A stretch of DNA of 64,000 nucleotides from Opitutia bacterium (GCA_029248665.1 JAQWIW010000016.1:62001-126000); one strand, 5' to 3'. Shown: positions 49,650-64,000, numbered from the stretch's first letter. The notes: a model not told the origin generated them from the letters alone. A program made the numbers and translations.

Positions 49650-49787
49650 CATTAGACAATATGCTAAGATTCATGTTGTAGGTTTTAAAAGAATATTCTG
49701 GCTTAACCTAATCCAAGATTTTTCTCTCTTAGCCGCACTAGTCCCATGATTTCACTAGAAATAATGGCTTTCATTCAGTTTCATTAA

Positions 49788-49866: not shown

Positions 49867-51171
49867 ATGGAATATTTTAATTGCCCTAAAATTCAGTACG
49901 AAGGTGCTGGTTCTAAAAACCCTTTTGCCTTTAAACATTATGATGCTGATGCAGTCATTGATGGTAAAACCATGAAGGAACATTTACGCTTTGCTGCTCC
50001 TTATTGGCACGTAATGAGAAATGCTCTTGCAGATCCTTTTGGTGAAGGAACGGCTGTGATGCCTTGGGATGATGGGACTAACTCTACTGAAAATGCGGTG
50101 AATCGAGTCGATGTCTTTTTTGAGTTTTTAGATAAAATGGGCATTGAATATTATTGCTGGCACGACCGTGATATCGCTCCTGAACTGAATAATCTTTCCG
50201 AGTCGAACAAAGCACTCGATGCAGTCGTGGCTAAACTTAAAGAAAAGCAAAAAGAAACTGGAGTGAAATTACTCTGGGGAACTGCCTGCTTATTTGCACA
50301 CCCAAGATACTCTCAAGGCGGGGCAACAACGCCCGATGCCAATGTATATGCCTATGCAGCCGCACAGGTTAAAAAAGCACTCGAATGCACCAAAGAGCTC
50401 GATGGCTTGGGATACACTTTCTGGGGTGGTCGTGAAGGCTATTCAACACTCTTGAATACCAACATGAAAAGAGAGCTCGATCACTTAGCCAACTTCTTAC
50501 ATATGGCAGTCGATCACGCAAAGAAAATTGGATTTGACGGACCTTTTTATATTGAGCCAAAACCAAGAGAGCCATCCACGCATCAATATGATTCTGATTC
50601 AGCAGCCTGCTTGAACTTTCTAAGAGAATACAATTTACTCGATCACTTTTATTTAAACATCGAAACGAATCACGCAACACTAGCGGGTCACACAATGGAG
50701 CACGAACTCACGGTGGCACTCAATGCAGATCGTCTTGGAAGTATTGATGCTAACCAAGGTGATGAACTGATTGGCTGGGATACCGATCAATTCCCTACTG
50801 ATATTTATCTCACTACTCAAGTGATGCTTAAAGTCCTAGAAATGGGAGGCTTCAAAACAGGTGGATTAAATTTTGACGCGAAGAGACGCAGAGAGTCACA
50901 CGACCCAATCGATCTGATTCATGCTCATGTTGGCGGAATGGATGCCTTTGCTCGTGGATTAAAAATTGCTCATGCCATTCGTGAAGATGGTCGCCTAACT
51001 AATTTCGTGAAAGAGCGCTATGCTTCTTTTGACACTGGAATTGGAGCGGAGATTGATGCAGGCAAAGTTGATTTTGAAACTTTGGAAAAATATGCACTCA
51101 ATCAAAACGAACCAAAGATTGCCAGTGGCCAGCAAGAGATGCTCGAAAACTTAATAAACGAATTTATCTAA
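49867..51171 (+). CDS. xylA: Xylose isomerase
   Basis: Converts D-xylose to D-xylulose, the first step of bacterial xylose use. The 434-aa protein is of the longer class II type. Metal and catalytic sequences are visible: [12 protein letters not shown] near residue 100 with the catalytic His, FWGGREGY near 184, [16 protein letters not shown], the [17 protein letters not shown] region, and [21 protein letters not shown] in pieces. The xylulokinase gene follows six bases later. Control by the XylR-type gene at 61091 is likely. Confidence 0.97.
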
Positions 51172-51177
51172 GTTCTG

Positions 51178-52731
51178 ATGGCGTATTCCTTAGGCATTGA
51201 TGGATCGACTCAAAGTATGTCGGCGATCGTTATCGATTTAGATAAGGGCGATGTCGTTTGCGAATGTGCAATCAATTTCGGAGAACGGCTTCCACAGTAT
51301 AATTCCCCTAATGGATTTTTCAACGGAGAGTCTTCAAACGAGGTATATTCTGACCCGCTTATGTGGTTGGATGCGATTGATTTACTCTTTGAGGAGCTAA
51401 AGGAATTATGTGACCTCAGTAAAGTCGAAGCTATCTCTGGTGCAGGCCAACAACATGGTTCAGTATATCTCAATGCTCAGTGGCTCAAGGCAATAAGCCA
51501 TTTAGATTCTGAGAAAACCTTATCTAAGCAAATAAAGCCGTGTTTAAGTCGTCCGCATTCGCCGATTTGGATGGATACTTCCACCACGCTCGAATGCCAA
51601 GAAATTACCCAAGCTCTAGGCGGCAACGATATCATTTGCCAAAAATCAGGTTCAGTCGCCATTGAGCGTTTCACGGGCCCGCAAATACGTCGTTTCTACA
51701 AGACTTCCCTCGAAGCCTATCCTAATACGGCAAGAATTCATCTAGTCAGTTCTTTCCTTTGTTCGATCTTTTCTGGGCAAGACGCCCCTATCGATACAGG
51801 CGATGGTGCTGGTATGAATTTGATGAATCTAAAATCGAATACTTGGGACGATGATTTAGTTCATGCAACGGCTCCAAATCTTTTAGATAAACTACCCGAT
51901 ATTGTTCAAGGGGAGACAATTGTAGGAAAGATTTCAGATTACTTTGTCAAAAAATATGGTTTTTCTGAGAAAGTTTCCGTAGTGGTATTCACTGGAGATA
52001 ACCCAAGTAGCCTTGTTGGAACTGCAGCAAGTACCCCTAGTAAAACAGTTATTTCTTTAGGCACTTCAGATACTTTTTTTGCGGCTATGCCAAGTACAGT
52101 ATCAGACCCTAACGGATTCGGTCATGTTTTTGGGAACCCCAGTGGAGGATCGATGTCTCTCCAATGCTTTTTAAATGGCTCACTCGCTCGTGAATACGTA
52201 AAAGATAAATATGAATACTCATGGGATCAGTTTACAGATGCCCTTTCGGAAACACCTCCCGGATGCAATGGCAATTATATGCTACCTTTCTTTAGCCCCG
52301 AGATCAGCCCACTGTATAATGGCAATGGCCCCGTACTCAAAGGCACTAGTATTTTCGAAAATTGGCGTAGTCCTAAGCTTGCAATTCGTGCCTGTATTGA
52401 AGGCCAATTTATGAATATGAAAGTGCATACTGATTGGATGCAAATGGTGCCAGAAATCATTTATGTCACAGGAGGTGCTTCAAAAAACACCACCATTATT
52501 CAAATCCTTTCGGACATCTTTCAAGCAGATGTACAAAGACTTGAAGTCAGTGGTTCGGTTGCACTTGGTGGTGCGATCCGAGCAGCCCAGCATTGTTTAA
52601 ATCACTCTTTAGAGTCATTAGAAGCAAGTTTCTGCAGTAATAGTTCAGAAGTGATTAAGCCAAATGAATCACATAAAGAGCTATACACAAAGGCCATCGA
52701 AGAAATTGAATCGATGCTTTTAGTACTTTAA
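51178..52731 (+). CDS. xylB: Xylulokinase
   Basis: FGGY-family sugar kinase that makes xylulose 5-phosphate for the pentose phosphate pathway. The 517-aa protein has the N-terminal SLGIDGSTQSMSAIVIDL, the substrate-contacting SGAGQQHGSVYL, the catalytic Asp region in DTGDGAGMNLMNL, and nucleotide-binding VISLGTSDTFFAA and YVTGGASKNTTI. It follows xylA by six bases, so they form an operon. Two structured non-coding elements follow it. Confidence 0.95.
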   Translation: MAYSLGIDGSTQSMSAIVIDLDKGDVVCECAINFGERLPQYNSPNGFFNGESSNEVYSDPLMWLDAIDLLFEELKELCDLSKVEAISGAGQQHGSVYLNAQWLKAISHLDSEKTLSKQIKPCLSRPHSPIWMDTSTTLECQEITQALGGNDIICQKSGSVAIERFTGPQIRRFYKTSLEAYPNTARIHLVSSFLCSIFSGQDAPIDTGDGAGMNLMNLKSNTWDDDLVHATAPNLLDKLPDIVQGETIVGKISDYFVKKYGFSEKVSVVVFTGDNPSSLVGTAASTPSKTVISLGTSDTFFAAMPSTVSDPNGFGHVFGNPSGGSMSLQCFLNGSLAREYVKDKYEYSWDQFTDALSETPPGCNGNYMLPFFSPEISPLYNGNGPVLKGTSIFENWRSPKLAIRACIEGQFMNMKVHTDWMQMVPEIIYVTGGASKNTTIIQILSDIFQADVQRLEVSGSVALGGAIRAAQHCLNHSLESLEASFCSNSSEVIKPNESHKELYTKAIEEIESMLLVL

Positions 52732-52934: not shown

Positions 52935-55900
52935 TTAGAAATAGAATCCTGCTGAAAGGACAATATTTCTACCTTCCGTGTAACGAGCATTATTTAGACC
53001 TGTACTGATTAAGTCTCTGCTATTGAAAATATTATTCACATTTAATTGTAGAACGGTCCAAGGATGATGCTTTTTAAGCTTTCCAGACCATTTAACAAAA
53101 ATATCTGTCTTTAATTGGTCTTCCAGCCAGAGAGTATTGAATGTAGGTTCAAGAATTATTTGCTCACTGCCTGAAGATTGAGGATCATCGACGGCTACGG
53201 GGATATAATCTGCTTGGCTATCTCCATCTTGGTCTGTGAAATAATGGCTTAACAATGCTGCCGAACGATATTTCTGATTCATGCCAATAGAGGTACCTTT
53301 GAGTCGACCTTGCTTGAAATTATATTTCAACGTAAAGTTGATATTATGATCCGATGTTCCAGCCGTGGGCAATCCCTCTAAAGCATCTAATGCTGATTTT
53401 AAAACCGTTGTTTCTAAGTAAGCATAGCCTAAAAATAAAGATAAATTTGGTGTCGGGTTATAGTAAAGGTCTAACTCTAAGCCTTCACTGCGAACCTCTT
53501 CATCGGCTACACGAAAGCCCTTTGGATTAAAGACCGCTCTAATTAATTCAACATCTTCTCCATCGACTTTTGCTGTTTGAGGATTTCCAAATCGATCCAC
53601 ATAATAATAAAAATCATAGATTTCGCTAGGAAGATATCCATTGTCGTAAGCTTCGGTCCGGATAGATCCATTTGCATTCTTCGCTGGATACAATGATGTT
53701 AACATCGGCCAACTAATGTTCTGCCTTTGCTCATTTTTCTTATCAATACTGAAGACGGTTAATTGCCCATTGAGCACATTATCTGGAGTGCTCATTTTAA
53801 AGCCAATTTCTTTACCTTTTCCAGTTTCAGGGGGTGTGATATCGCCAAATACATCAAATTGGAATCCATTGGGCGAAATTACTGACTCAGAATAATTACC
53901 GAAAATCGCTAGATTTTGTGTGAACCAATATAAGCCACCAATCGAAGGTGAATAAATCGTCTCATCGTATTTTTGGCTTTTGATTTCTAAATTAGCACCC
54001 AAATCTTCTTTGGTATTGTCGACCGCTCTGAGAGTGAATCTTGAATATTCACTCTGCGTTTCAATTGAATCACGGCGAACGCCAATCAATGTACGAAGCT
54101 TACCATTTAAATACGATCCAGATGCAGCAAACCATAGTCCTTGGGAATCAACGGTTGCATCTGCCTGATATACTTTCTGCCATTCAGCGACATTGGATAC
54201 GCCGAGTGGGATTTTCGTGTTGGTGATTAGGTTGGGTGCTCCACTTAATTCCTGCCCCTCAATGATTGCATTGAAATAGGCACTATCACCTTCTGTCCCG
54301 TTCATGACATTATATAAGAGTACATAATCTGAAAGAATATCATCTCTTAAGTAAAGATTTTCAGCATCACCCCAAGCACGAGCAAATAAACTCACTTGTT
54401 GTTCTTCAGAGCGACTGGCTTCTCGATGATCCAAATCAATCCCGAACAAGAATTGCTGTTTCCCAGGAATGAAGTCCATCTCTTCATTATAATTGAAAGT
54501 GATTCTAGCGGATTGATTCGTATCCTTATTACTCGACTTCTTCCATTGTCTCTTAATAAAAGGTTCTAACATTTCAACTGCGGAAGAAGAGATTGATGGC
54601 ATAGCGGCATCGCGTACCCCATCATCATCAATATCAACAAATTCACTCTCCTCATCTAAATAATCTTCATCTTCAAGTACTGCGTCTAACTTCAAAATCA
54701 GTCCTGGTTGAATATAATCTTTCCACATCCATGAATAGTCTAGTGATTCATGTAATTCGTATTTAAAGAAATCGGCAATCTTACTAGTGGCATCCCAAAA
54801 TTCATTATCACTATCGGGATCACCGACTTCGTTTACCAGTATATCATAAACTTTTTTTGCAATGGCTCGTTTCTGTAGCTCAACTTCATCTGGATCATTT
54901 CCATCTACCTTATTATCAAATACATTAGTAGCCAATCCACTGATCTCCACACCAGGCAGAGTATTCATATCACGGATTTGACCATTTAATCCAGCAATCA
55001 ACCAAGTAGGAATCGAATCGTAAATTAATTTTTCGCCGTCTTCAGTTAAAGCAAAGTCTTCTGATGTAATGTCAAAAAATATACCATTTTCTGGATCAAT
55101 GGGGATAGGGTTATCGATAAAATTATTATAAAAAGAATTTTCAAAATCTAAAGTTTCGTAAAGCTCCCCGGTGCGTGCTTCTTTTTCTGCGAAATCTTCT
55201 GGAGTGGCGTAGTCTTGAAGCTGTGTTCGATATGTTGAGACATCTACAAAGCGATCCAAATTGAACAATTCACTGATTGCCTTACCTGCAGGTGCGGATT
55301 GCTCACCGTCCGTTAAGACATTATAAAAAATATCACCTAATGCCTGACCACCACCTGATGGAACATTACCCCAAGCGTATCCATAATCACTTCCATAATT
55401 AGGGTGGCTTTGTTTTAAGAAATCTTGGACTCGTCCACCAAATTTTCCTAATTCATAAAATTTTTCTAATTGCGTTTCTGCATCAGAGATATCGAGGAAG
55501 TTATCGACAAAATAATCAATCATTTCATCGTTAGTGATAGCATTATCGTTATTACTATCTGCATTGACGTCGCCAAATGCCTGAAGGTTAACATTTCCTG
55601 TCCAATTAGCTGCTACTGCTGTTTTTAAATCCGCGCGAATAGTTTCAATACCCTTAGTTTCAATTGTATCTAAGATAAGATGGGCGTAATTTGCATTAGT
55701 TAAATCAACCAACACACTTTCGTAGGGAGATTGGATACCCTCATTAATAGGATTCGCATTATATTCATTAAGTGACCGAAGTGTAGGAAAGCGAACGGTA
55801 GTACCATAACCTGATGAAAAATTAAGTTGGTTAGCTGACCATCCAGAAGACAGTTGATTGTCCACAAGGTCTTCAAAAGCAAGTGCGACTTTCACGCTAA

Positions 55901-57344
55901 AATTATCGGAAAAAGAATGCTCTAGATCAGCTAAGACATAATCAAAACTTTTTCTAGAGTACGAATCTGGACCGAATCCAGTTCCTGAGTTTGAGTAATC
56001 AATCCCCCTAAAGAGATTTCGAATATCTTCCCGACTATCAATATAATCAGGAACTAAAGGACCACCGGAAGGTGTGATTCCCCAAATATTAGGATTATTG
56101 GATCGTGTCATCAACCCACCGTAAGCGTAATCAGAATCATTGTAGATGCCGTCTTGATTGATGTCAGCATCCACTCCTAGTGAATTTTCAATTGGCTCAC
56201 TACCTCTATCGATAATGCCATCTCCTGGAGCTAACACATAATTGGTTTCCCCTGGATCCCATATACCATTTCCATTCGTAGCCGCTGAACTACCATCGGC
56301 TTGAGCATCAATCACCCAAACATCGCTGGTATCATAGCGACCATTACCATTCCAATCTGTATAATTGCGCTCTACTCTATTATCATTATTTACGTCTATA
56401 AAGCCATATATCCCATTCAGTTCCCCTTCTGGGTCTGCATATATTGAATCGTAATTTTGCCCATCAAATTGATTCACATTTGAATAATTAATAATTTCTT
56501 GTAAAAACTCATCACTGATTAAGTCAGCTAATTTGGGATCAGCGACTATTCCATTAGGAAGCCCTGTAGGGCTTGACCCTACTTTGAAGGTACCACCAAT
56601 CAAAGAACGTTCAGAAACTCCGGTTTCCAAATGTAATCTAAGCCGAGTTTTCGGGCTGATGTTATGCATCAACTCAAGGGTACCACCGGTGAATGATTGA
56701 TATTTATAATTGGCATCAAACTCTCTGTGCTTATCCACAAACATAAAACGAGCTGCCGTATTATCTCCTAACACGCTATTTACGTCGTAGCTAAATTTAT
56801 GCCAATCCTTGTCACCGATTTCAATAGCCACACTTGCTTTGTCTTTATTGAGATTAGCCGTTTTAGAAATTACGTTCACCTTACCTCCGGGATCTGCTTG
56901 CCCATAGATCAAACTATTCGCACCGCGAATAATATCAGAACGTCCTACGTTGTACCAATCTAAGGGCGAATATCTAGGCATGAATTCATACAACTGATTC
57001 TTAGTTAATAATCCTCTGAAACGAATTTCTTGATTATTATAAACATTCCCTTCTGCTTCGATACTAGGCACGAAATTACCCAAGTCTTCCAAGGTTTTCA
57101 TTTTAAAATCCTCAATCATTTCCGCATTCACAGTGGAAATGGTCATGGGGATATTTTTCGTCAATTCATTAGTACGAGTACCCGCTAATGTATTCGCAGA
57201 ATAGTAACCTTTGTCATCGTCATCCGTGACCACAAAATCGGGTAAAATATAAAATTCTTCTTCGCCATTTTCATTTCCTTGGAGAAGGAGAGAACTGACA
57301 AAACATAATGATAAAACAATATAGGGGTAGGCTTTAAGATGCAT
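52935..57344 (-). CDS. Very large TonB-dependent outer-membrane receptor with Ca-type insertions
   Basis: At 1469 aa this is nearly twice the length of common TonB receptors. After a signal peptide comes an acidic stretch (DDDDKGYYSANTLAGTRTNE), typical of Opitutia receptors, then the plug (about residues 60-170, with EIRFRGLLTKN and ADPGGKVNVISK), then the barrel ending LSAGFYF. Extracellular insertions include Asp/Asn-rich loops resembling calcium-binding or dockerin-like repeats: DVNNDNRVERNY (about 316), NGNGRYDTSDVW (about 335), NGNGIWDPGE (about 360), DINQDGIYNDSDY (about 395), and shorter ones near 595, 905 and 1372. Its place beside xylAB suggests xylo-oligosaccharide uptake, but the substrate is inferred only from context. 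Confidence 0.92.
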   Translation of the reverse strand: MHLKAYPYIVLSLCFVSSLLLQGNENGEEEFYILPDFVVTDDDDKGYYSANTLAGTRTNELTKNIPMTISTVNAEMIEDFKMKTLEDLGNFVPSIEAEGNVYNNQEIRFRGLLTKNQLYEFMPRYSPLDWYNVGRSDIIRGANSLIYGQADPGGKVNVISKTANLNKDKASVAIEIGDKDWHKFSYDVNSVLGDNTAARFMFVDKHREFDANYKYQSFTGGTLELMHNISPKTRLRLHLETGVSERSLIGGTFKVGSSPTGLPNGIVADPKLADLISDEFLQEIINYSNVNQFDGQNYDSIYADPEGELNGIYGFIDVNNDNRVERNYTDWNGNGRYDTSDVWVIDAQADGSSAATNGNGIWDPGETNYVLAPGDGIIDRGSEPIENSLGVDADINQDGIYNDSDYAYGGLMTRSNNPNIWGITPSGGPLVPDYIDSREDIRNLFRGIDYSNSGTGFGPDSYSRKSFDYVLADLEHSFSDNFSVKVALAFEDLVDNQLSSGWSANQLNFSSGYGTTVRFPTLRSLNEYNANPINEGIQSPYESVLVDLTNANYAHLILDTIETKGIETIRADLKTAVAANWTGNVNLQAFGDVNADSNNDNAITNDEMIDYFVDNFLDISDAETQLEKFYELGKFGGRVQDFLKQSHPNYGSDYGYAWGNVPSGGGQALGDIFYNVLTDGEQSAPAGKAISELFNLDRFVDVSTYRTQLQDYATPEDFAEKEARTGELYETLDFENSFYNNFIDNPIPIDPENGIFFDITSEDFALTEDGEKLIYDSIPTWLIAGLNGQIRDMNTLPGVEISGLATNVFDNKVDGNDPDEVELQKRAIAKKVYDILVNEVGDPDSDNEFWDATSKIADFFKYELHESLDYSWMWKDYIQPGLILKLDAVLEDEDYLDEESEFVDIDDDGVRDAAMPSISSSAVEMLEPFIKRQWKKSSNKDTNQSARITFNYNEEMDFIPGKQQFLFGIDLDHREASRSEEQQVSLFARAWGDAENLYLRDDILSDYVLLYNVMNGTEGDSAYFNAIIEGQELSGAPNLITNTKIPLGVSNVAEWQKVYQADATVDSQGLWFAASGSYLNGKLRTLIGVRRDSIETQSEYSRFTLRAVDNTKEDLGANLEIKSQKYDETIYSPSIGGLYWFTQNLAIFGNYSESVISPNGFQFDVFGDITPPETGKGKEIGFKMSTPDNVLNGQLTVFSIDKKNEQRQNISWPMLTSLYPAKNANGSIRTEAYDNGYLPSEIYDFYYYVDRFGNPQTAKVDGEDVELIRAVFNPKGFRVADEEVRSEGLELDLYYNPTPNLSLFLGYAYLETTVLKSALDALEGLPTAGTSDHNINFTLKYNFKQGRLKGTSIGMNQKYRSAALLSHYFTDQDGDSQADYIPVAVDDPQSSGSEQIILEPTFNTLWLEDQLKTDIFVKWSGKLKKHHPWTVLQLNVNNIFNSRDLISTGLNNARYTEGRNIVLSAGFYF

Positions 57345-57379
57345 AGGATAGTTGAGTAGTAAAAAAATCAGAATAACCC

Positions 57380-57408
57380 ATTATACGAAGTATGAATTCG
57401 TTAATCAA
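57380..57408 (-). promoter_or_regulatory. Sigma70-type promoter of the TonB receptor gene
   Basis: On the minus strand TTGATT (57403-57408) and a perfect TATAAT (57380-57385) are exactly 17 bp apart. The start site would lie near 57373, giving a leader of about 29 bases. The spacer contains a short dyad ACGAA...TTCGT that may bind a regulator. Confidence 0.65.
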
Positions 57409-57468
57409 CAGTTCAAAATGACTCTTTAATTACATTTTATGAAACTAGATCACTAATATGCAAGCGTC

Positions 57469-57504
57469 GAAAAAAAAGCCCAATAAGCACTAATGGCTTA
57501 TTGG
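57469..57504 (-). terminator. Intrinsic terminator after the EF-hand gene
   Basis: On the minus strand CCAATAAGC (57496-57504) pairs with GCTTATTGG (57480-57488) around a seven-base loop, followed by a GC and a run of T (57471-57477 region). It stops transcription of the EF-hand gene before the receptor promoter. Confidence 0.8.
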
Positions 57505-57539
57505 ACTGAAAATTAAAAAAATAAGATTTTAGGAATAAT

Positions 57540-57794
57540 TTATTTAGAAGCTAAAAATTCTTCTAAAGTAATTCCTCCATCTTTATTTTTATCGTGGTAT
57601 TTGAAGAATTTTTGACTTTCATCTTCTGATTTACCCCACTTAGCCCTTACTGCTACGTACTCATCAAGAGAAATGACACCGTCAGAGTTTTGATCAAATG
57701 ATTTTTTGAACCGTTTGATTTTAGCATCATTTGCAAAGAGTCCCATGGGGGCTAAAAAAGAAATAATGAGAATGGATAATAATATATTTTTCAT
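57540..57794 (-). CDS. Small secreted EF-hand calcium-binding protein
   Basis: The 84-aa protein has a signal peptide (MKNILLSILIISFLAPMGLFA) and two clear EF-hand loops, D34-E45 (DQNSDGVISLDE) and D68-E79 (DKNKDGGITLEE). It is probably a periplasmic or extracellular calcium-binding factor. In the second loop, DKNKDGGITLEE keeps all the expected ligand positions. It has its own terminator, and its position beside a receptor with Ca-type loops suggests cooperation, but no partner is proven. Confidence 0.88.
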   Translation of the reverse strand: MKNILLSILIISFLAPMGLFANDAKIKRFKKSFDQNSDGVISLDEYVAVRAKWGKSEDESQKFFKYHDKNKDGGITLEEFLASK

Positions 57795-57878
57795 GATTAA
57801 TAATTGAATAGGTTGGGCTAAAATTGTATTTAATGCTGTTAGGCTTATGATTAATTACAATAAAATTTAAGATGAATA

Positions 57879-59879
57879 TCAAAGATAATGAAACGATAAT
57901 GCACAGTGCATTTTGAACCGTGGAATCGTCACAACATACATTGAATCATTTTGTAGAATATCAAGCTCTTGCTTATCGGGAATTAGAGATACTGACTTAA
58001 TTTCTTTAGGAAATTGGAAAGCAATGGTAATGTTTTCTAAGGATACGCTATCTTCAATAACTGAAGTTATGCCTCTACGAATAGGTGTACTGTAAAGCAC
58101 ATGAAGCACGTAGCGTTTTTCATTGGCTTGATGAAGTAAATTAATTCGAGCTGCACTCGGTAAATCGACCTCAATTATTGGATTTTTGTAGATTAAATCT
58201 AAACAATTCTTGAACAGATCTCGATGGATTCGCGCACCATGTTTATGATACATTGCATCCAATTCATGAGCAATGAAGATACACTTATCTTTTTTTACGA
58301 TGGCGGGATGTTGTGCCTTAGTGTCCTTAAAGGGTGTTTTTTGATGGGAACAATAATGCTCCGAGGTACGGTTAAAATACGGTTCGAAAATATCAGCTAG
58401 CACTTCTACTTCTGATATGGGTTTTACCTGAATGGCCGCATCATAATTCAAAAATGGCGTTTTAACAAAAATCGGATACAAGGTATCTTTAATCAAAGTG
58501 TAATCACAATCAAAACTAGAATCGCTTAAATATGCGACACCGAACTCTTCGGAAACTTTATCTTCAGTGAAATTCAAAAGACTTTTAGCTAGAGTGATCA
58601 CTGACCCACCCGACTTTATGAAACTCTTAACCTTATGTATTTCCTCAGAAGATAGTAGCGTTTTGCTGGGGAAAATAAGTACCGAATATTCGCTAAAGTC
58701 TTTGCTAAAATTAGCCACATCAAAATCGATTTGATTTTCTAAAAGTATTTTAGATAAACCTTCATCAGACTCTTGGTCAAAAGATCGCCAAAGTGCCAGC
58801 TTAGATATTGGCTTTCCTCCGATTCCATACGCTTCAACTTGCTCAGCATAATTATAAGCATAAGCAATATTTTCATAGGTACTGCTATCAATTATCCCAT
58901 TGGGGTGGAGTTGGTCACCAAAATTACAATTGGCTCCTGAGGCAATCATTGCTGCTGCTTCATATTTTAAAGCATCGGGATGCTTAAATCCTCCAAACTC
59001 ACCCCAGTCTGTATGAAATTTTCCACTCATGGCCGTTATGGGAAAACCTGCATTAAGAAAAAATTTAGCCTGCATGGGAAGCTTGTCATACCCGCCCCAA
59101 GTCGTCGGCAAATCTTCAAGGTCTTGAATAGTGTTATTTTCGTACATTCGGTGACGAAAATTCGCCCCACTATCGATTGCAGTTGTACCATTAAAAAATA
59201 CTTCTGCCTTGGGTATCTTTTCATGAATCAAAGTACTTAAGGTGCTACAATGTCGTTTCATCTGTGAGGCATTGAAGGCTTCCACAGTAGCTAGATCCCC
59301 CATATCTAGACCTAAAGATATCATGGATTTTTTACATTTCTCGCAATAGCAAAGCCGGTGCACTTGGTAGATATCAAACCAAAATCCATCTACTGAATAG
59401 GTATCACATAATTCTTTAATTTGGGAATGGATTAAATCATGATACGCAGTATTCAAACACATGAATTTCCAATAAAAATGAGGTAATTTTTGAGTCTTTT
59501 GCTTTTGCTTTTGCTCTTCCTCTGATAAAGCACCGTGAACAATGAAAGAACCATCTTTATTTTTCACACACCATTCAGGATGATCTTCGGCATCATTTGA
59601 AGACCAACCTACAGTAAAATAAATAAATGTTTTGATGCCTATTTCTTTACAGGCTGCAATCTGAGCACCTAGTAAATCAAACTTTAAATTCGGATGGATT
59701 CTACCAATCTTGGTGGGATAATAACTCCAACTATGATGACACTTCGCAAAAAGATTAATCGAAGTCACTTTGGCCTCTATCAAATACTTTTGAAATACTT
59801 TCTTATCAAAACTTTCGCCTATATTTTCAATATACTCCGAACAGTGAAAATCTAGATGGATTTGCCGTTTCAAAGTCAT
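57879..59879 (-). CDS. GHL6-type glycoside hydrolase-like protein with trimerisation-type domain
   Basis: The 666-aa protein starts RQIHLDFHCSEYIENIGESFD and SINLFAKCHHSWSYYPTKIG, which are typical of the hypothetical glycosyl hydrolase family 6 (GHL6) seen in Bacteroidota, Verrucomicrobiota and others. The TIM-barrel-type domain covers about the first 340 residues (IYQVHRLCYCEKC, TWGGYDKLPMQAKFFLNAG). A domain like the beta-galactosidase trimerisation fold follows (LALWRSFDQESDEG, YSVLIFPSKTLLSSEEIHK, SGGSVITLA), then a beta-rich tail. There is no signal peptide, so cytoplasmic action on imported oligosaccharides is likely. Substrate unknown. Confidence 0.82.
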   Translation of the reverse strand: MTLKRQIHLDFHCSEYIENIGESFDKKVFQKYLIEAKVTSINLFAKCHHSWSYYPTKIGRIHPNLKFDLLGAQIAACKEIGIKTFIYFTVGWSSNDAEDHPEWCVKNKDGSFIVHGALSEEEQKQKQKTQKLPHFYWKFMCLNTAYHDLIHSQIKELCDTYSVDGFWFDIYQVHRLCYCEKCKKSMISLGLDMGDLATVEAFNASQMKRHCSTLSTLIHEKIPKAEVFFNGTTAIDSGANFRHRMYENNTIQDLEDLPTTWGGYDKLPMQAKFFLNAGFPITAMSGKFHTDWGEFGGFKHPDALKYEAAAMIASGANCNFGDQLHPNGIIDSSTYENIAYAYNYAEQVEAYGIGGKPISKLALWRSFDQESDEGLSKILLENQIDFDVANFSKDFSEYSVLIFPSKTLLSSEEIHKVKSFIKSGGSVITLAKSLLNFTEDKVSEEFGVAYLSDSSFDCDYTLIKDTLYPIFVKTPFLNYDAAIQVKPISEVEVLADIFEPYFNRTSEHYCSHQKTPFKDTKAQHPAIVKKDKCIFIAHELDAMYHKHGARIHRDLFKNCLDLIYKNPIIEVDLPSAARINLLHQANEKRYVLHVLYSTPIRRGITSVIEDSVSLENITIAFQFPKEIKSVSLIPDKQELDILQNDSMYVVTIPRFKMHCALSFHYL

Positions 59880-59909
59880 TTAATATTTAGATGCATTAAT
59901 TTAAAAAAT

Positions 59910-59943
59910 AAAAAAAGTGGAGAAGGCAACCCTTCTCCACTTT
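59910..59943 (-). terminator. Intrinsic terminator after the PEP-CTERM gene
   Basis: Arms of 13 bases, AAAGTGGAGAAGG (59914-59926) and CCTTCTCCACTTT (59931-59943), with a four-base loop CAAC. On the minus strand it is followed by T runs (59910-59920 and beyond). Any transcript of the GHL6 gene from upstream must read through it. Confidence 0.9.
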
Positions 59944-59965
59944 AGAAAATTTATATAACTTACTG

Positions 59966-60856
59966 TTACTTTCTTTTACGAATTGCTACGAAGAGAAAAG
60001 AAGCAAATCCGATTAGAAGAGCGTAGGTAGATGGCTCAGGTACTGTTGATAAAGCTATATTATCCACTGCTATCCAGTTTCCAGTTGCACCACTAGATGC
60101 GTCTGTTCCCCAAACTCCTCCGCCATTCATAGTTTTCATTTGGAAGCCTGTAATTGATGTTAGACCAGTACCTGAAGATAATTCTGTCCATGTTAGAGAA
60201 TCTGTACTGTCACCATCATTGTTAACACCTAGGGAAGATCTCGCTGACCATGCACCTGTGGACAAATCACCATTTATTTGAAGTGTTAAATCCTTATTAT
60301 CATTTGAACCATTAAAGTTGTAAGAATTATTAAGTCCAATACCTGAAGTAGTTCCTCCAAATGCACCGACTGCGGTGCCTCCTTTTTGACTGTATGCTTG
60401 TGCAAAATTTCCAGATCCTGCTTTAAGAGCGATAGCCGCAAAATTACCTTCACCGTTTTCTAAACCAAATAGTATACCCATATTAGCAGTCTTTGGGTCA
60501 TTTAATTGCCATGTATCCAAAACTACTGTGAAGGCAAATGTATCTCCAGTGATAGCATTATCTAATGTGAATCGCCTAGTGACATCTCCAGTATCAATTT
60601 GAGGTTCACCGGCACCATTATTAAAAAGGCCTTTATAATTGGATGTATATCCGATATTCAAACTTCCTGAGGTATTAGAGCCCGCTGTTTGAGTAGACGC
60701 ACCGCCGAAATTCCATGCACCAGTCGCATCACCAAGGGCACTTGTAGCATTTAAATTAGTTCCATTCGCATCATTAAAGCCAATTTCTAAATTTACGGCA
60801 AAGATGTTTCCAACAAGAAATAAAGAAACAATCGTAAGATTTAATAAGTTTTTCAT
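59966..60856 (-). CDS. PEP-CTERM surface protein, possibly carbohydrate- or adhesin-related
   Basis: Secreted 296-aa protein with signal peptide (MKNLLNLTIVSLFLVGNIFA) and a C-terminal PEP-CTERM sorting tail: VPEPSTYALLIGFASFLFVAIRKRK in shorter pieces, that is a PEP motif, one membrane helix and a basic end. The exosortase (EpsH/XrtA type) that would process it is outside the window. The body is rich in Gly, Asn, Ser and Thr and predicted beta-structured, like a lectin or jelly-roll domain (FAFTVVLDTWQLND, MGILFGLENGEGNF). Its exact function is unknown. It is the first gene of a minus-strand group. Confidence 0.9.
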   Translation of the reverse strand: MKNLLNLTIVSLFLVGNIFAVNLEIGFNDANGTNLNATSALGDATGAWNFGGASTQTAGSNTSGSLNIGYTSNYKGLFNNGAGEPQIDTGDVTRRFTLDNAITGDTFAFTVVLDTWQLNDPKTANMGILFGLENGEGNFAAIALKAGSGNFAQAYSQKGGTAVGAFGGTTSGIGLNNSYNFNGSNDNKDLTLQINGDLSTGAWSARSSLGVNNDGDSTDSLTWTELSSGTGLTSITGFQMKTMNGGGVWGTDASSGATGNWIAVDNIALSTVPEPSTYALLIGFASFLFVAIRKRK

Positions 60857-60865
60857 AGGGTATAG

Positions 60866-60923
60866 GTTATAGGGTAAAGATAATTAACTTTCAAATCTTA
60901 CCAAATTGTTAAAGCATCAACAA
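60866..60923 (-). promoter_or_regulatory. Two tandem candidate promoters of the PEP-CTERM gene
   Basis: Proximal: TTGAAA (60889-60894) and TATAAC (60866-60871), 17 bp apart, the -10 ending nine bases before the ATG, so the transcript would be almost leaderless. Distal: TTGTTG (60918-60923) and TAAGAT (60895-60900), also 17 bp apart, giving a leader of about 35 bases. Either could be the real one. Confidence 0.45.
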
Positions 60924-61090
60924 TTAATACTAATGAATCAAAATATACCCAAAATGAAACTTCTTTTGCTATTTTGCTTGCTTAATAAGTTCAATTTATT
61001 AAATTAAAAATTATTAATTATTATTAATGAAACTTTTAGGCTTATATAATTAAGTAACCGATTTTCATAAAATAAGTATAAAATTATTAG

Positions 61091-62251
61091 ATGCTAAAAC
61101 CCAAACATATATTACTCTTACTGGAATGGTATGATTACCGAATTCATAAAGGCGTGGCACAAATGGCTCGCAAATATGGGTGGCAATTAAATTGCCCAAA
61201 GAATCAAAACAACATATCTTCTAAGTCAGGAATTTTGAAAGATTGGGATGGAGACGGCTGTATCGCCATGATTGAGTGTGATGAAACCTTTGAATACCTT
61301 AGAGGTAAACAAATTCCTTTAATTGATATGGGGCTTAGGGATCACCAAATACCGATTCCTCGTATGATTACGGATAATGAAAAGATTGGAAAACTTGCGG
61401 CCGAACACCTTCGTGAATTTGGACACAAGGAAATTTTCGTAATCGATCACGGTAAAAACATGATGTTTAAAGAGCGATTGAAATCACTCCAGAAACATTC
61501 TCGGATTAATAACTGCAAGGTAACTATTTTAAAATCTGCATCCGAGATTCAGAATGAGATTCTTCACGAATTAGAAGCAATTTTAGAAGAAAGAGGGCAA
61601 AAACTTAGAGAATCTTCATTAAGTTTTTTTGCTTATAACGATGCCATTGCGGCTGATTTGATTTCTCTTTGCTTAAGAAATGATATTCGCATTCCCGAAA
61701 ACATAGCGATCCTTGGGGTGGATAATGATGATTTAATCATAAGTAGTCTCATCCTAGGACTGAGCAGTGTGGATAGTGATCAAGAAGGATTAGGCCGGTC
61801 TTCTGCTAAATTGATGCATAATTTATTAAGTACTGGTGAAGTACAAACAAATGAAGAAATTTTTAGGCATCCTCCAAAAGGAGTGGTCACACGCAGAAGC
61901 ACTGATTGTTATGCGGTGAGAAATCCCCTAGTTTCAAACGCATTGCATTGGATTCAAAATAATTTTTATAAAGGGATACAAGCGACCGATGTTGCTTCAG
62001 CGATGAATGTCACTCAACAGGGTTTGCAAAAAGCATTTGCCGTAAATTATATCCGAAGTCCAGGCAATGAAATCAGACATCAGCGATTGGAAGCGGTTGC
62101 CTTCTTATTGAAAACGACAAATGCAAATTTAGATACCATCGCAAAAAACTGCGGCTTCTATTCAGTCAATTCTTTGATTAATAGCTTTCGCAAAAAATAC
62201 GATACGACTCCAGGGAAATTCAGAGAGTTACACAAAAAAGAAAACAACTGA
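61091..62251 (+). CDS. xylR: XylR-type transcriptional regulator (LacI-like sensor, AraC output)
   Basis: The 386-aa protein combines an N-terminal periplasmic-binding-type sensor (KHILLLLEWYDYRIHKGVAQMA, VDSDQEGLG-type segment, HPPKGVVTRRSTD) and a C-terminal AraC pair of helix-turn-helix motifs (IQATDVASAMNVTQQGLQKA; LDTIAKNCGFYSVNSLINSFRKK with the closing PGKFREL). This is the layout of XylR, which activates xylose genes on binding D-xylose. It lies beside the xylan locus and likely controls it. The stop is one base from that of the convergent xylanase gene. A TATAAA ends eight bases before the ATG. Confidence 0.9.
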   Translation: MLKPKHILLLLEWYDYRIHKGVAQMARKYGWQLNCPKNQNNISSKSGILKDWDGDGCIAMIECDETFEYLRGKQIPLIDMGLRDHQIPIPRMITDNEKIGKLAAEHLREFGHKEIFVIDHGKNMMFKERLKSLQKHSRINNCKVTILKSASEIQNEILHELEAILEERGQKLRESSLSFFAYNDAIAADLISLCLRNDIRIPENIAILGVDNDDLIISSLILGLSSVDSDQEGLGRSSAKLMHNLLSTGEVQTNEEIFRHPPKGVVTRRSTDCYAVRNPLVSNALHWIQNNFYKGIQATDVASAMNVTQQGLQKAFAVNYIRSPGNEIRHQRLEAVAFLLKTTNANLDTIAKNCGFYSVNSLINSFRKKYDTTPGKFRELHKKENN

Positions 62252-62252
62252 T

Positions 62253-64000
62253 TTAATCGTCAATTTCGACTTTGTAGAATTTCGATAGAGAATCTAAGTG
62301 ATTTTCGGACCATGTATTCAATGTCGTATTATCTCCTTGGATAGCTTCTTCCAGGACATCCCATTGATTCAAGCTGAGGTCACTCGTGGCTAATATTCGA
62401 TACAGTTTTTCTGCACTACCCAACCACTGTATTTGATTATCTGCTTGTTGATGATTGAAACCATAATGCCTAAATAGAGAATATGGATTATTTGGATTTG
62501 TCCCACTTCTGAATTCAATTAAATTGCTGAGACCATCATTATCAGCATCTGCATTTGGCAAACTATCTAAGTTGCTGAAATTACTTTGCTCCCATGCGTC
62601 CAGCATGCCATCGGAATCGGTATCTTCTGGATTCACTAAATCGGAAAGTTTAGAAAGTGAAATATCATCGACGTAAAAATTCACTCCCGCATCCACTCCA
62701 GCGATATAGATAAAGTCCATGTAATCTTGGTAAACAAACTGGCCTGATAAATCGACCCAAGTTTGCCCCTCAACACCATCCTGGTATTCAGTAATTGAAT
62801 TATAAACAACAGGATCCGTAGATTCTTTTATGGTGAGAGCTAGATTGGCACTTGATGCATCTAAATAAACCTTTGATGAAAATTGATACGTCGACCCTAC
62901 TTGCAAGGTATCCGTCGCACCAGAACCCGATAATATAAACCTTAATCCATGCCAAGATAAGGGAGTCCCTGCAGAATCTCGCTGAACTCTAAGTGAATTA
63001 TTTCCTGCATACGCTTGGCTATTTGAACTAGCCAAATTCACCGCACCAAATGGAATTAGACCACTATCAATGCTTCCTGATTCAAAGCCTGAATTATCAA
63101 TGAGACTTGGGCCTAATTGAATACTGCCGACTGAAATCTGTATAGAGTCTTGGATTATATTATTCCCTTGTGCGATAATGGACAAAATATGGACTCCCTC
63201 TGATGCGTCATACCAATTTGTTTGGAATGGTGGCACTGAATCTATTTTGTATAAATTTCCGTTTATATAAAATTCAACATTATTAATTCCGCTAATCGAT
63301 CCACTGGGATAAGCTGCATTTATTTCAATAGCTTCATTCAGGAAAAAAGTTTCATTGTCATATGGTTTTATAATTTTGAATTCACCATCCCCTTCGGTTA
63401 AATCACCCTCTGAATAAGATAAATAATACGGTTCTTGATCTGAATTAACTGTGATTGTTTTAGCGTAAGTAGTACCATCAATAATCACATCATAGTCTCC
63501 CGCAAATACGGCTAATTCAACATTACCACTTTCGTCGGTTTCAACAAGTGAGTCTGTCCACCATTCGTCATAAACTAGCTCACGATAACGTGTCACTTGA
63601 TCTGTCTCTATCCAATTGGTAGGATCATCATCTGCAGTGGCGGCTTTGTCATTCTTATCATAGCCTTCGTATTGCCAAGGTGCTCGATAATCTCTCCAGT
63701 GACAACCTGACCAAAAACCCCACATAAGAACCCCTTCAACCGCAGGATGCTCAAAAGCAGCCCTGTATACATTTTCAAGTTGATTTGCTTTTGCAGATTC
63801 AGAACTACTTATTGAACCGATATCTAGCTCAGTGATTTTAATAGGGACACCTAAATCATCTAAGATATTGAAACAATCTGTTAAGTGCTGTTTTGAGCGA
63901 GCGGTATTTCCAAAGTGACCTTGAACACCGATACCGTCGACAGGCACTCCATGATTATCCCTTAAATCAATCAATAAATTCTTAAAACTAGTCGCATTCC
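62253..64000 (-). CDS. Multidomain GH10 endo-1,4-beta-xylanase, C-terminal part
   Basis: About 582 residues are in the window and the gene continues past the right edge. The first part is the end of a GH10 barrel: VDGIGVQGHFG and PIKITELDIGSISS with the nucleophile Glu, and EGVLMWGFWSGCHWR; the acid/base Glu would lie outside. Next come a small beta-domain (AGDYDVIIDGTTYAKTITV), an Ig-like Big_7-type segment (NNVEFYINGNLYKIDSVPP), and a CBM4/9-like carbohydrate-binding domain (LIDNSGFESGSIDSG, FYVDDISLSKL). Then follows a thrombospondin-type Ca motif (DTDSDGMLDAWEQ, DADNDGLSNLIEF), and a final module with ATSDLSLNQWDV and FYKVEID. It is an extracellular xylan-degrading enzyme, regulated probably by the neighbouring XylR. 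Confidence 0.93.
   Translation of the reverse strand, partial: NATSFKNLLIDLRDNHGVPVDGIGVQGHFGNTARSKQHLTDCFNILDDLGVPIKITELDIGSISSSESAKANQLENVYRAAFEHPAVEGVLMWGFWSGCHWRDYRAPWQYEGYDKNDKAATADDDPTNWIETDQVTRYRELVYDEWWTDSLVETDESGNVELAVFAGDYDVIIDGTTYAKTITVNSDQEPYYLSYSEGDLTEGDGEFKIIKPYDNETFFLNEAIEINAAYPSGSISGINNVEFYINGNLYKIDSVPPFQTNWYDASEGVHILSIIAQGNNIIQDSIQISVGSIQLGPSLIDNSGFESGSIDSGLIPFGAVNLASSNSQAYAGNNSLRVQRDSAGTPLSWHGLRFILSGSGATDTLQVGSTYQFSSKVYLDASSANLALTIKESTDPVVYNSITEYQDGVEGQTWVDLSGQFVYQDYMDFIYIAGVDAGVNFYVDDISLSKLSDLVNPEDTDSDGMLDAWEQSNFSNLDSLPNADADNDGLSNLIEFRSGTNPNNPYSLFRHYGFNHQQADNQIQWLGSAEKLYRILATSDLSLNQWDVLEEAIQGDNTTLNTWSENHLDSLSKFYKVEIDD

Follow-up and report, generated by a model that had tools for sequence, protein, structure and literature searches.

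The DNA analysed here raises a simple question: do a giant receptor, a small EF-hand protein, a PEP-CTERM protein, a hydrolase, a XylR-like regulator and a multidomain GH10 xylanase, encoded side by side, form one system, and what would that system act on? A sequence-only reading had proposed a SusCD-less, calcium-themed xylan utilisation system built from these six genes, and all six are found by domain or family matches at the coordinates given below. The window, meaning the whole stretch of 64,000 nucleotides, corresponds to 62001-126000 on a contig of 147,615 bases, from a genome of 1.42 Mb that is 97.8% complete. Named records of the same genus, classed as Puniceicoccaceae or Verrucomicrobia, derive from metagenomes of the ocean and the Caspian; the host is best read as a pelagic, Puniceicoccaceae-like marine bacterium with a small genome. 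Throughout, statements on whole genomes refer to targeted family searches, and the genus labels (g1, g2, g3, g4, g6, g222) are the search tool's own, g1 being the genus of the present genome and g2 its sister genus.

The locus begins earlier and ends later than the six genes. Ahead of the receptor gene stand, at 49867-52731 on the plus strand, xylA, a xylose isomerase gene (49867-51171, plus strand; TIGR02630 at 675.8 bits against a cut-off of 533, with the same neighbour in three same-genus genomes), and a xylB-like xylulokinase gene of the FGGY kinase type (51178-52731, plus strand; FGGY_N and FGGY_C domains, with XylB as the best NCBIfam model, below its cut-off). After the receptor, EF-hand, hydrolase and PEP-CTERM genes comes the XylR-like regulator, which joins a sugar-binding domain to an AraC-type helix-turn-helix (61091-62251, plus strand; Peripla_BP_3, HTH_18) and has orthologues within the enzyme loci of other genera. 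The window edge falls inside the next gene, GH10a (62253-64000, minus strand, continuing to 65102), so that about half of the locus lies outside the window. In extended window coordinates the complete GH10a protein has 949 residues and ends at 65102; as the sequence-only reading had it, this is a multidomain xylanase, with Big_7, CBM4_9 and a TSP3-type tail. Beyond the rest of GH10a, ten further genes run in the same reading direction up to the contig end: a GPH symporter, GH52, a gene for a 1639-residue protein, SULF1, SULF2, SULF3, GH10b, SULF4, GH10c and SULF5. From xylA through SULF5 this gives 18 clustered genes, all of which recur in identical order, followed by an aldose epimerase gene, in the same-genus genome G243; G235 and G216 hold partial runs of the same order. 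Short DNA repeats in the locus were at chance level and were dropped.

What the locus acts on is suggested by its enzymes, since three GH10 proteins, a GH52 beta-xylosidase, five sulfatases, a GPH-family (pentoside-type) symporter, XylAB and XylR stand in one run. The three GH10 enzymes, together with GH52 and XylAB, speak for xylose in beta-1,4 linkage, and the five sulfatases for a sulfated substrate. The formylglycine cysteine motif is kept in four of the five. GH10a and SULF2 end in a common C-terminal tail (Ig, CBM4_9, TSP3-type and end domain; about 375 residues, 63% identical between the two), which suggests that a xylanase and a sulfatase are aimed at one polymer. GH10 enzymes, sulfatases and a xylosidase thus occur together in one locus, as expected of a sulfated-xylan locus, with the activity as a prediction from sequence; in marine Bacteroidetes, loci that combine GH10 with sulfatases have been attributed to sulfated xylans (PMC6794258, PMC6298971). 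The earlier proposal of a xylan thus gives way to one of a sulfated xylan, because GH52, the transporter, more GH10 genes and all five sulfatases lie past the window. We consider it likely that the 18-gene cluster is a utilisation locus for a sulfated algal xylan that works in the manner of a proteobacterial CUT locus, with one receptor and no SusD. One point against this reading is that SULF5 (L006:3056-4615, at the contig end outside the window) lacks the active-site cysteine; it reads FGSSR where the orthologues examined have CGASR or CGATR, and may be either an inactivated sulfatase or a contig-end error.

A second sugar may be involved. The hydrolase gene (57879-59879, minus strand) does carry the GHL6 domain where it had been placed; its product matches the GH151 alpha-L-fucosidase ALfuk2 (PDB 6TVK) over its full length at E 5e-112 and keeps the GH151 nucleophile, acid/base and complementing histidine (D169, E255, H512), so that a hydrolase of unknown kind is ruled out in favour of a GH151-type alpha-L-fucosidase. 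The protein has no leader and is therefore probably cytoplasmic. Because five genera (g1, g2, g3, g4 and g222) have GH151 alongside GH52, the symporter and GH10c, we take it as part of the same pathway. The side-chain sugar that it would remove may be fucose or another, and the genes nearby and elsewhere point both ways: a fucose-isomerase-type gene lies on another contig of the present genome (C13), AraA has no match in this genome by targeted family search, and an FGGY kinase gene adjoins GH151 in g6. An L-ribulokinase-type gene directly follows GH151 in g3 and g4 (L103:7482-9137 and L104:16496-18160), which hints at an arabinose-type side sugar. On C13 (L125:3656-10196) GH3, fucose-isomerase-type, FGGY pentulose kinase and acetylxylan-esterase-like genes are grouped, perhaps as a side-chain branch of the pathway; the same type of pentulose kinase also occurs in a g3 xylan locus (L114).

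The GH151 gene also opens the question of whether the target is not a xylan but a sulfated polysaccharide of mixed composition, perhaps with fucose in it, where xylose would be one sugar among others and GH10 and GH52 would handle the xylose part. Fucose-containing sulfated polysaccharides do hold xylose, and Puniceicoccaceae are reported users of fucan (PMC8857213). Against this, three GH10 enzymes and GH52 stand opposite a single fucosidase-type gene, no fucanase-type domain occurs among the genes scanned, and regulator and sugar pathway alike are of the xylose type. We regard a mixed target as unlikely and continue with sulfated xylan as the preferred substrate.

Does the receptor belong with these enzymes at all? 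The gene (52935-57344, minus strand) encodes a TonB-dependent receptor of 1469 residues, the giant receptor of the sequence-only reading, with a Plug domain and orthologues. Its TonB-siderophore family match is below cut-off, its solved relatives are CntO and FoxA (metallophore and siderophore receptors), and the NCBIfam scan at E 0.01 gave no SusC/RagA model and listed TonB-siderophor instead. Moreover, five genera of the family share the enzyme core, which in genera other than g1 has no adjoining receptor, and the g2 receptor stands beside gltX, away from the enzymes. These observations count against the xylan-locus reading and are what one would expect if the enzymes were a sulfated-xylan locus and the receptor and EF-hand gene a separate neighbouring unit, such as a siderophore, metal or cofactor receptor. 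The distribution of the genes argues the other way. Within g1 the receptor, the EF-hand gene and GH151 and/or GH52 are found together in G000, G243, G235 and G216 (for G235 and G216, to the extent that their fragmented contigs allow) and are jointly absent from G162 and G263, while G587 is without the EF-hand gene and GH151. In g2, G010 and G133 carry both the giant receptor and the enzymes, encoded on separate contigs, and G079 has neither; because the g2 receptor is present only with the enzymes, it appears tied to the pathway even where unlinked. The numbers in this comparison are small and the genomes related. In addition, xylB directly adjoins the receptor in all four linked cases.

The promoters provide the remaining evidence on this point. 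The motif AGTTTCA[TA], picked after inspection, is present in 13 of 13 upstream regions (those of xylA, PEP-CTERM/xylR, the receptor, the gene for the 1639-residue protein and SULF5, in four genomes whose orthologous copies are not independent), compared with a mean of 0.35 hits and a maximum of 3 in dinucleotide shuffles and 1 hit over 18 control intergenic regions. Each of the four same-genus genomes has it ahead of the receptor gene. In the window, AGTTTCAT stands ahead of xylA (49777-49784, plus strand), ahead of the receptor gene (57439-57446, minus strand) and, as two copies 73 bases apart, in the stretch from the PEP-CTERM gene to xylR (60954-61034, minus strand); G243 has a pair 72 bases apart. 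As a bare 8-mer the motif is not strongly enriched over the whole window (8 against 4.2 expected), and AGTTTCAT in reverse, ATGAAACT, also begins many leader-peptide genes. Its presence ahead of every operon tested, the receptor's included, suggests one regulon, and from the position of its gene we infer that XylR binds the AGTTTCAT sites. Since receptor and enzyme operons share the motif in four genomes and the receptor co-varies with the enzymes even when unlinked, we think it quite unlikely that the receptor is a separate unit. Taken with the gene order shared with G243, the co-variation within the genus and the common motif uphold one coherent xylan locus without SusD. The expectation that the six genes co-occur holds within the genus and fails across the class, where the enzyme core is found elsewhere without the receptor and EF-hand gene; the EF-hand gene and the linked receptor are both limited to a single genus.

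Accepting the receptor as part of a sulfated-xylan locus, we can ask what its unusual size consists of. Orthologues measure about 950 residues across most of the family, 1397-2030 in g1 and about 1300 in g2, and an orthologue alignment confines the added length to two places, which strand parity would place at external loops 3 and 4. Insert 1 (residues about 290-430; 56055-56477, minus strand; predicted loop 3), delimited by alignment and composition, is rich in Asp and Asn and holds two of the three DxDxDG motifs of the protein. Insert 2 (residues about 500-935; 54540-55847, minus strand; predicted loop 4) is an orphan domain: in a sample of 384 genomes of the class its roughly 400 residues are shared by the present genome and G010 alone, with matching segments in further g1 and g2 members that limit it to two genera, and its presence tracks that of the enzyme locus. 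It has no meaningful Pfam match and no sequence relative in the PDB. An AF2 model of receptor residues 225-1010 from five sequences reached a mean pLDDT of 44, with helices in insert 2 at a local confidence of mostly 55-90; Foldseek and VIA-align found nothing above noise for this low-confidence model, a result that weighs neither for nor against a likeness to SusD, and because the model as a whole is poor we assign no fold to insert 2. A viral search gave no receptor relatives. The large, fast-changing external loops look new from these comparisons, and CUT-locus receptors are not known to carry inserts like them. Two further receptors deserve mention: the giant receptor of G133 (L065:9872-13701) is split over two overlapping frames and is thus broken or mis-assembled, and contig C18 of the present genome (L061:10116-13493) encodes a second large receptor of 1125 residues among sulfatases and PEP-CTERM-like proteins, possibly a second locus of like style.

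The absence of SusD, in turn, holds for the whole genome, which has no PF07980 match by targeted family search. As a distinguishing trait it fails: SusD is found in 4 of 246 genomes of the order, and the 242 others without it rule out SusD absence as a special feature of this locus.

The proposed calcium theme appears to be partly real, in that candidate motifs occur in the EF-hands, in a DxDxD loop and in the outer loops of the receptor. The EF-hand gene (57540-57794, minus strand; PF13499 and PF00036 above cut-off) encodes a protein of 84 residues with a leader and two canonical 12-residue loops, which are conserved in relatives. In g1, each of the four genomes with the receptor has the EF-hand gene beside the receptor gene (the G216 copy is cut by a contig end). 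Close relatives occur neither in g2 nor in the three g1 genomes that lack the locus, and a plasmid search found no relatives. In the receptor, DxDxDG occurs 3 times against 0.28 expected from shuffles (P 0.004), and 11 and 18 times in the same-genus orthologues G216 and G243, counts reached by 0 of 1000 shuffles. A late receptor loop, D1371-x-D-x-D-xxx-D1379 (53208-53234, minus strand), keeps Asp at positions 1, 3, 5 and 9 in five orthologues. The thrombospondin-type repeats attributed to GH10a fare less well: two DxDxDG loops are visible in its tail, and the TSP3-type repeat is one stretch of 22 residues at 23.0 bits, below the PF18884 cut-off of 25. The G243 receptor also has about 26 fifteen-residue units of the type DxNGNGxWDxGE; this array (L066:11927-12706) lies inside an external loop and is absent or short in close relatives, the repeat has no Pfam model or PDB sequence, and weak relatives occur on Candidatus Manganitrophus plasmids.

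Such motifs might simply be a by-product of the growth of acidic, low-complexity loops, with no shared function and with an EF-hand protein unrelated to the receptor. The receptors of G235 and G010 fit this explanation, as their large inserts are without the strict motif (1 DxDxDG in each whole receptor, not significant), as do the occurrence of such repeats in unrelated proteins and the lack of the EF-hand gene in a sister genus that has the giant receptor. What it does not readily account for is that motif counts are far above shuffles in three of four same-genus receptors, that the Asp spacing of the late loop is invariant, and that the EF-hand gene adjoins every linked receptor in the genus. 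We place this explanation a little short of an even chance. Calcium-dependent surface assembly, as first proposed, would be a prediction from motifs. Going further, insert 2, with calcium-stiffened repeat arms whose size varies between relatives, could act as a built-in SusD substitute, a lid that captures glycan within a single protein, arose on a receptor of the siderophore type and is served by a dedicated EF-hand protein; we offer this as speculation and think it improbable.

The last component is the PEP-CTERM protein (59966-60856, minus strand), called a surface protein in the sequence-only reading and assigned to the PEP-CTERM type by a C-terminal signal with PF07589 and TIGR02595 above cut-off; the two exosortase genes of the genome complete what is expected of an exosortase substrate. 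Its structural model, of low confidence (mean pLDDT 55), resembles the beta-sandwiches of legume lectins, ERGIC-53 and GH43 tails (best Foldseek E 2e-5; best VIA Z 11.3 across 160 residues at 3.1 A), so that binding of glycan at the surface is plausible. Relatives are present in the g1 and g2 loci, and the 1639-residue protein of the locus contains repeats of the PEP-CTERM protein's domain.

In the mechanism that we infer from these parts, secreted GH10 enzymes and sulfatases, working at the cell surface or beyond it, would break down a sulfated beta-1,4-xylan that probably bears side chains and strip off its sulfate, and lectin-like PEP-CTERM proteins would keep the substrate at the surface. 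The enlarged outer loops of the receptor may capture oligosaccharides, which the receptor would import and the GPH symporter move into the cytoplasm; there GH151 would take off the side-chain sugar, GH52 would free xylose, and XylA and XylB would pass it to central metabolism. XylR would switch all operons through the AGTTTCAT sites, and calcium would most likely stiffen the linkers of the enzymes and the acidic outer loops. Planktonic Verrucomicrobiota have been credited with the breakdown of sulfated algal glycans (PMC8857213), and the locus offers one candidate importer for their SusD-less glycan uptake. If the loop domain does capture glycan, it would amount to a separately evolved solution to the task that SusD performs in Bacteroidetes. 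The GH10-GH52-GH151-sulfatase core may itself serve as a marker for sulfated-xylan use outside Bacteroidetes.

How does the locus compare with known systems? The sulfated-xylan PULs of marine Flavobacteriia (Formosa, Polaribacter, Aurantivirga; PMC6794258, PMC6298971) likewise combine GH10, several sulfatases and xylosidase-type enzymes in a marine algal setting, but they pair SusC/SusD with GH3, GH30 or GH43, whereas here a single giant receptor, without SusD, goes with GH52, GH151 and a GPH symporter. A receptor, an inner-membrane transporter, degradative enzymes and a regulator standing together define a CUT locus, and all four are found here. CUT loci of Xanthomonas and Caulobacter, including those for xylan and xylose (PMC1790865), share this set, with one receptor and no SusD, as well as a common promoter motif ahead of receptor and enzyme genes; they differ in that no sulfatases, EF-hand or PEP-CTERM proteins are named for them and in a regulator of a different type. 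Because a SusD-less receptor is known from these xylan and xylose loci, the kind of system is a known one. A further comparison is with the GH29-sulfatase loci of Verrucomicrobiota in diatom blooms (PMC8857213), which come from the same bacterial family, are rich in sulfatases and include a fucosidase and, in some contexts, xylanases; they centre on GH29 and methyl pentoses and the present locus on GH10, GH52 and GH151. Compared with ALfuk2 (PDB 6TVK), the GH151 protein is alike over its full length and in its catalytic residues and differs in being set in a xylan locus. What is new is the combination of genes in Verrucomicrobiota, together with the loop inserts of the receptor.
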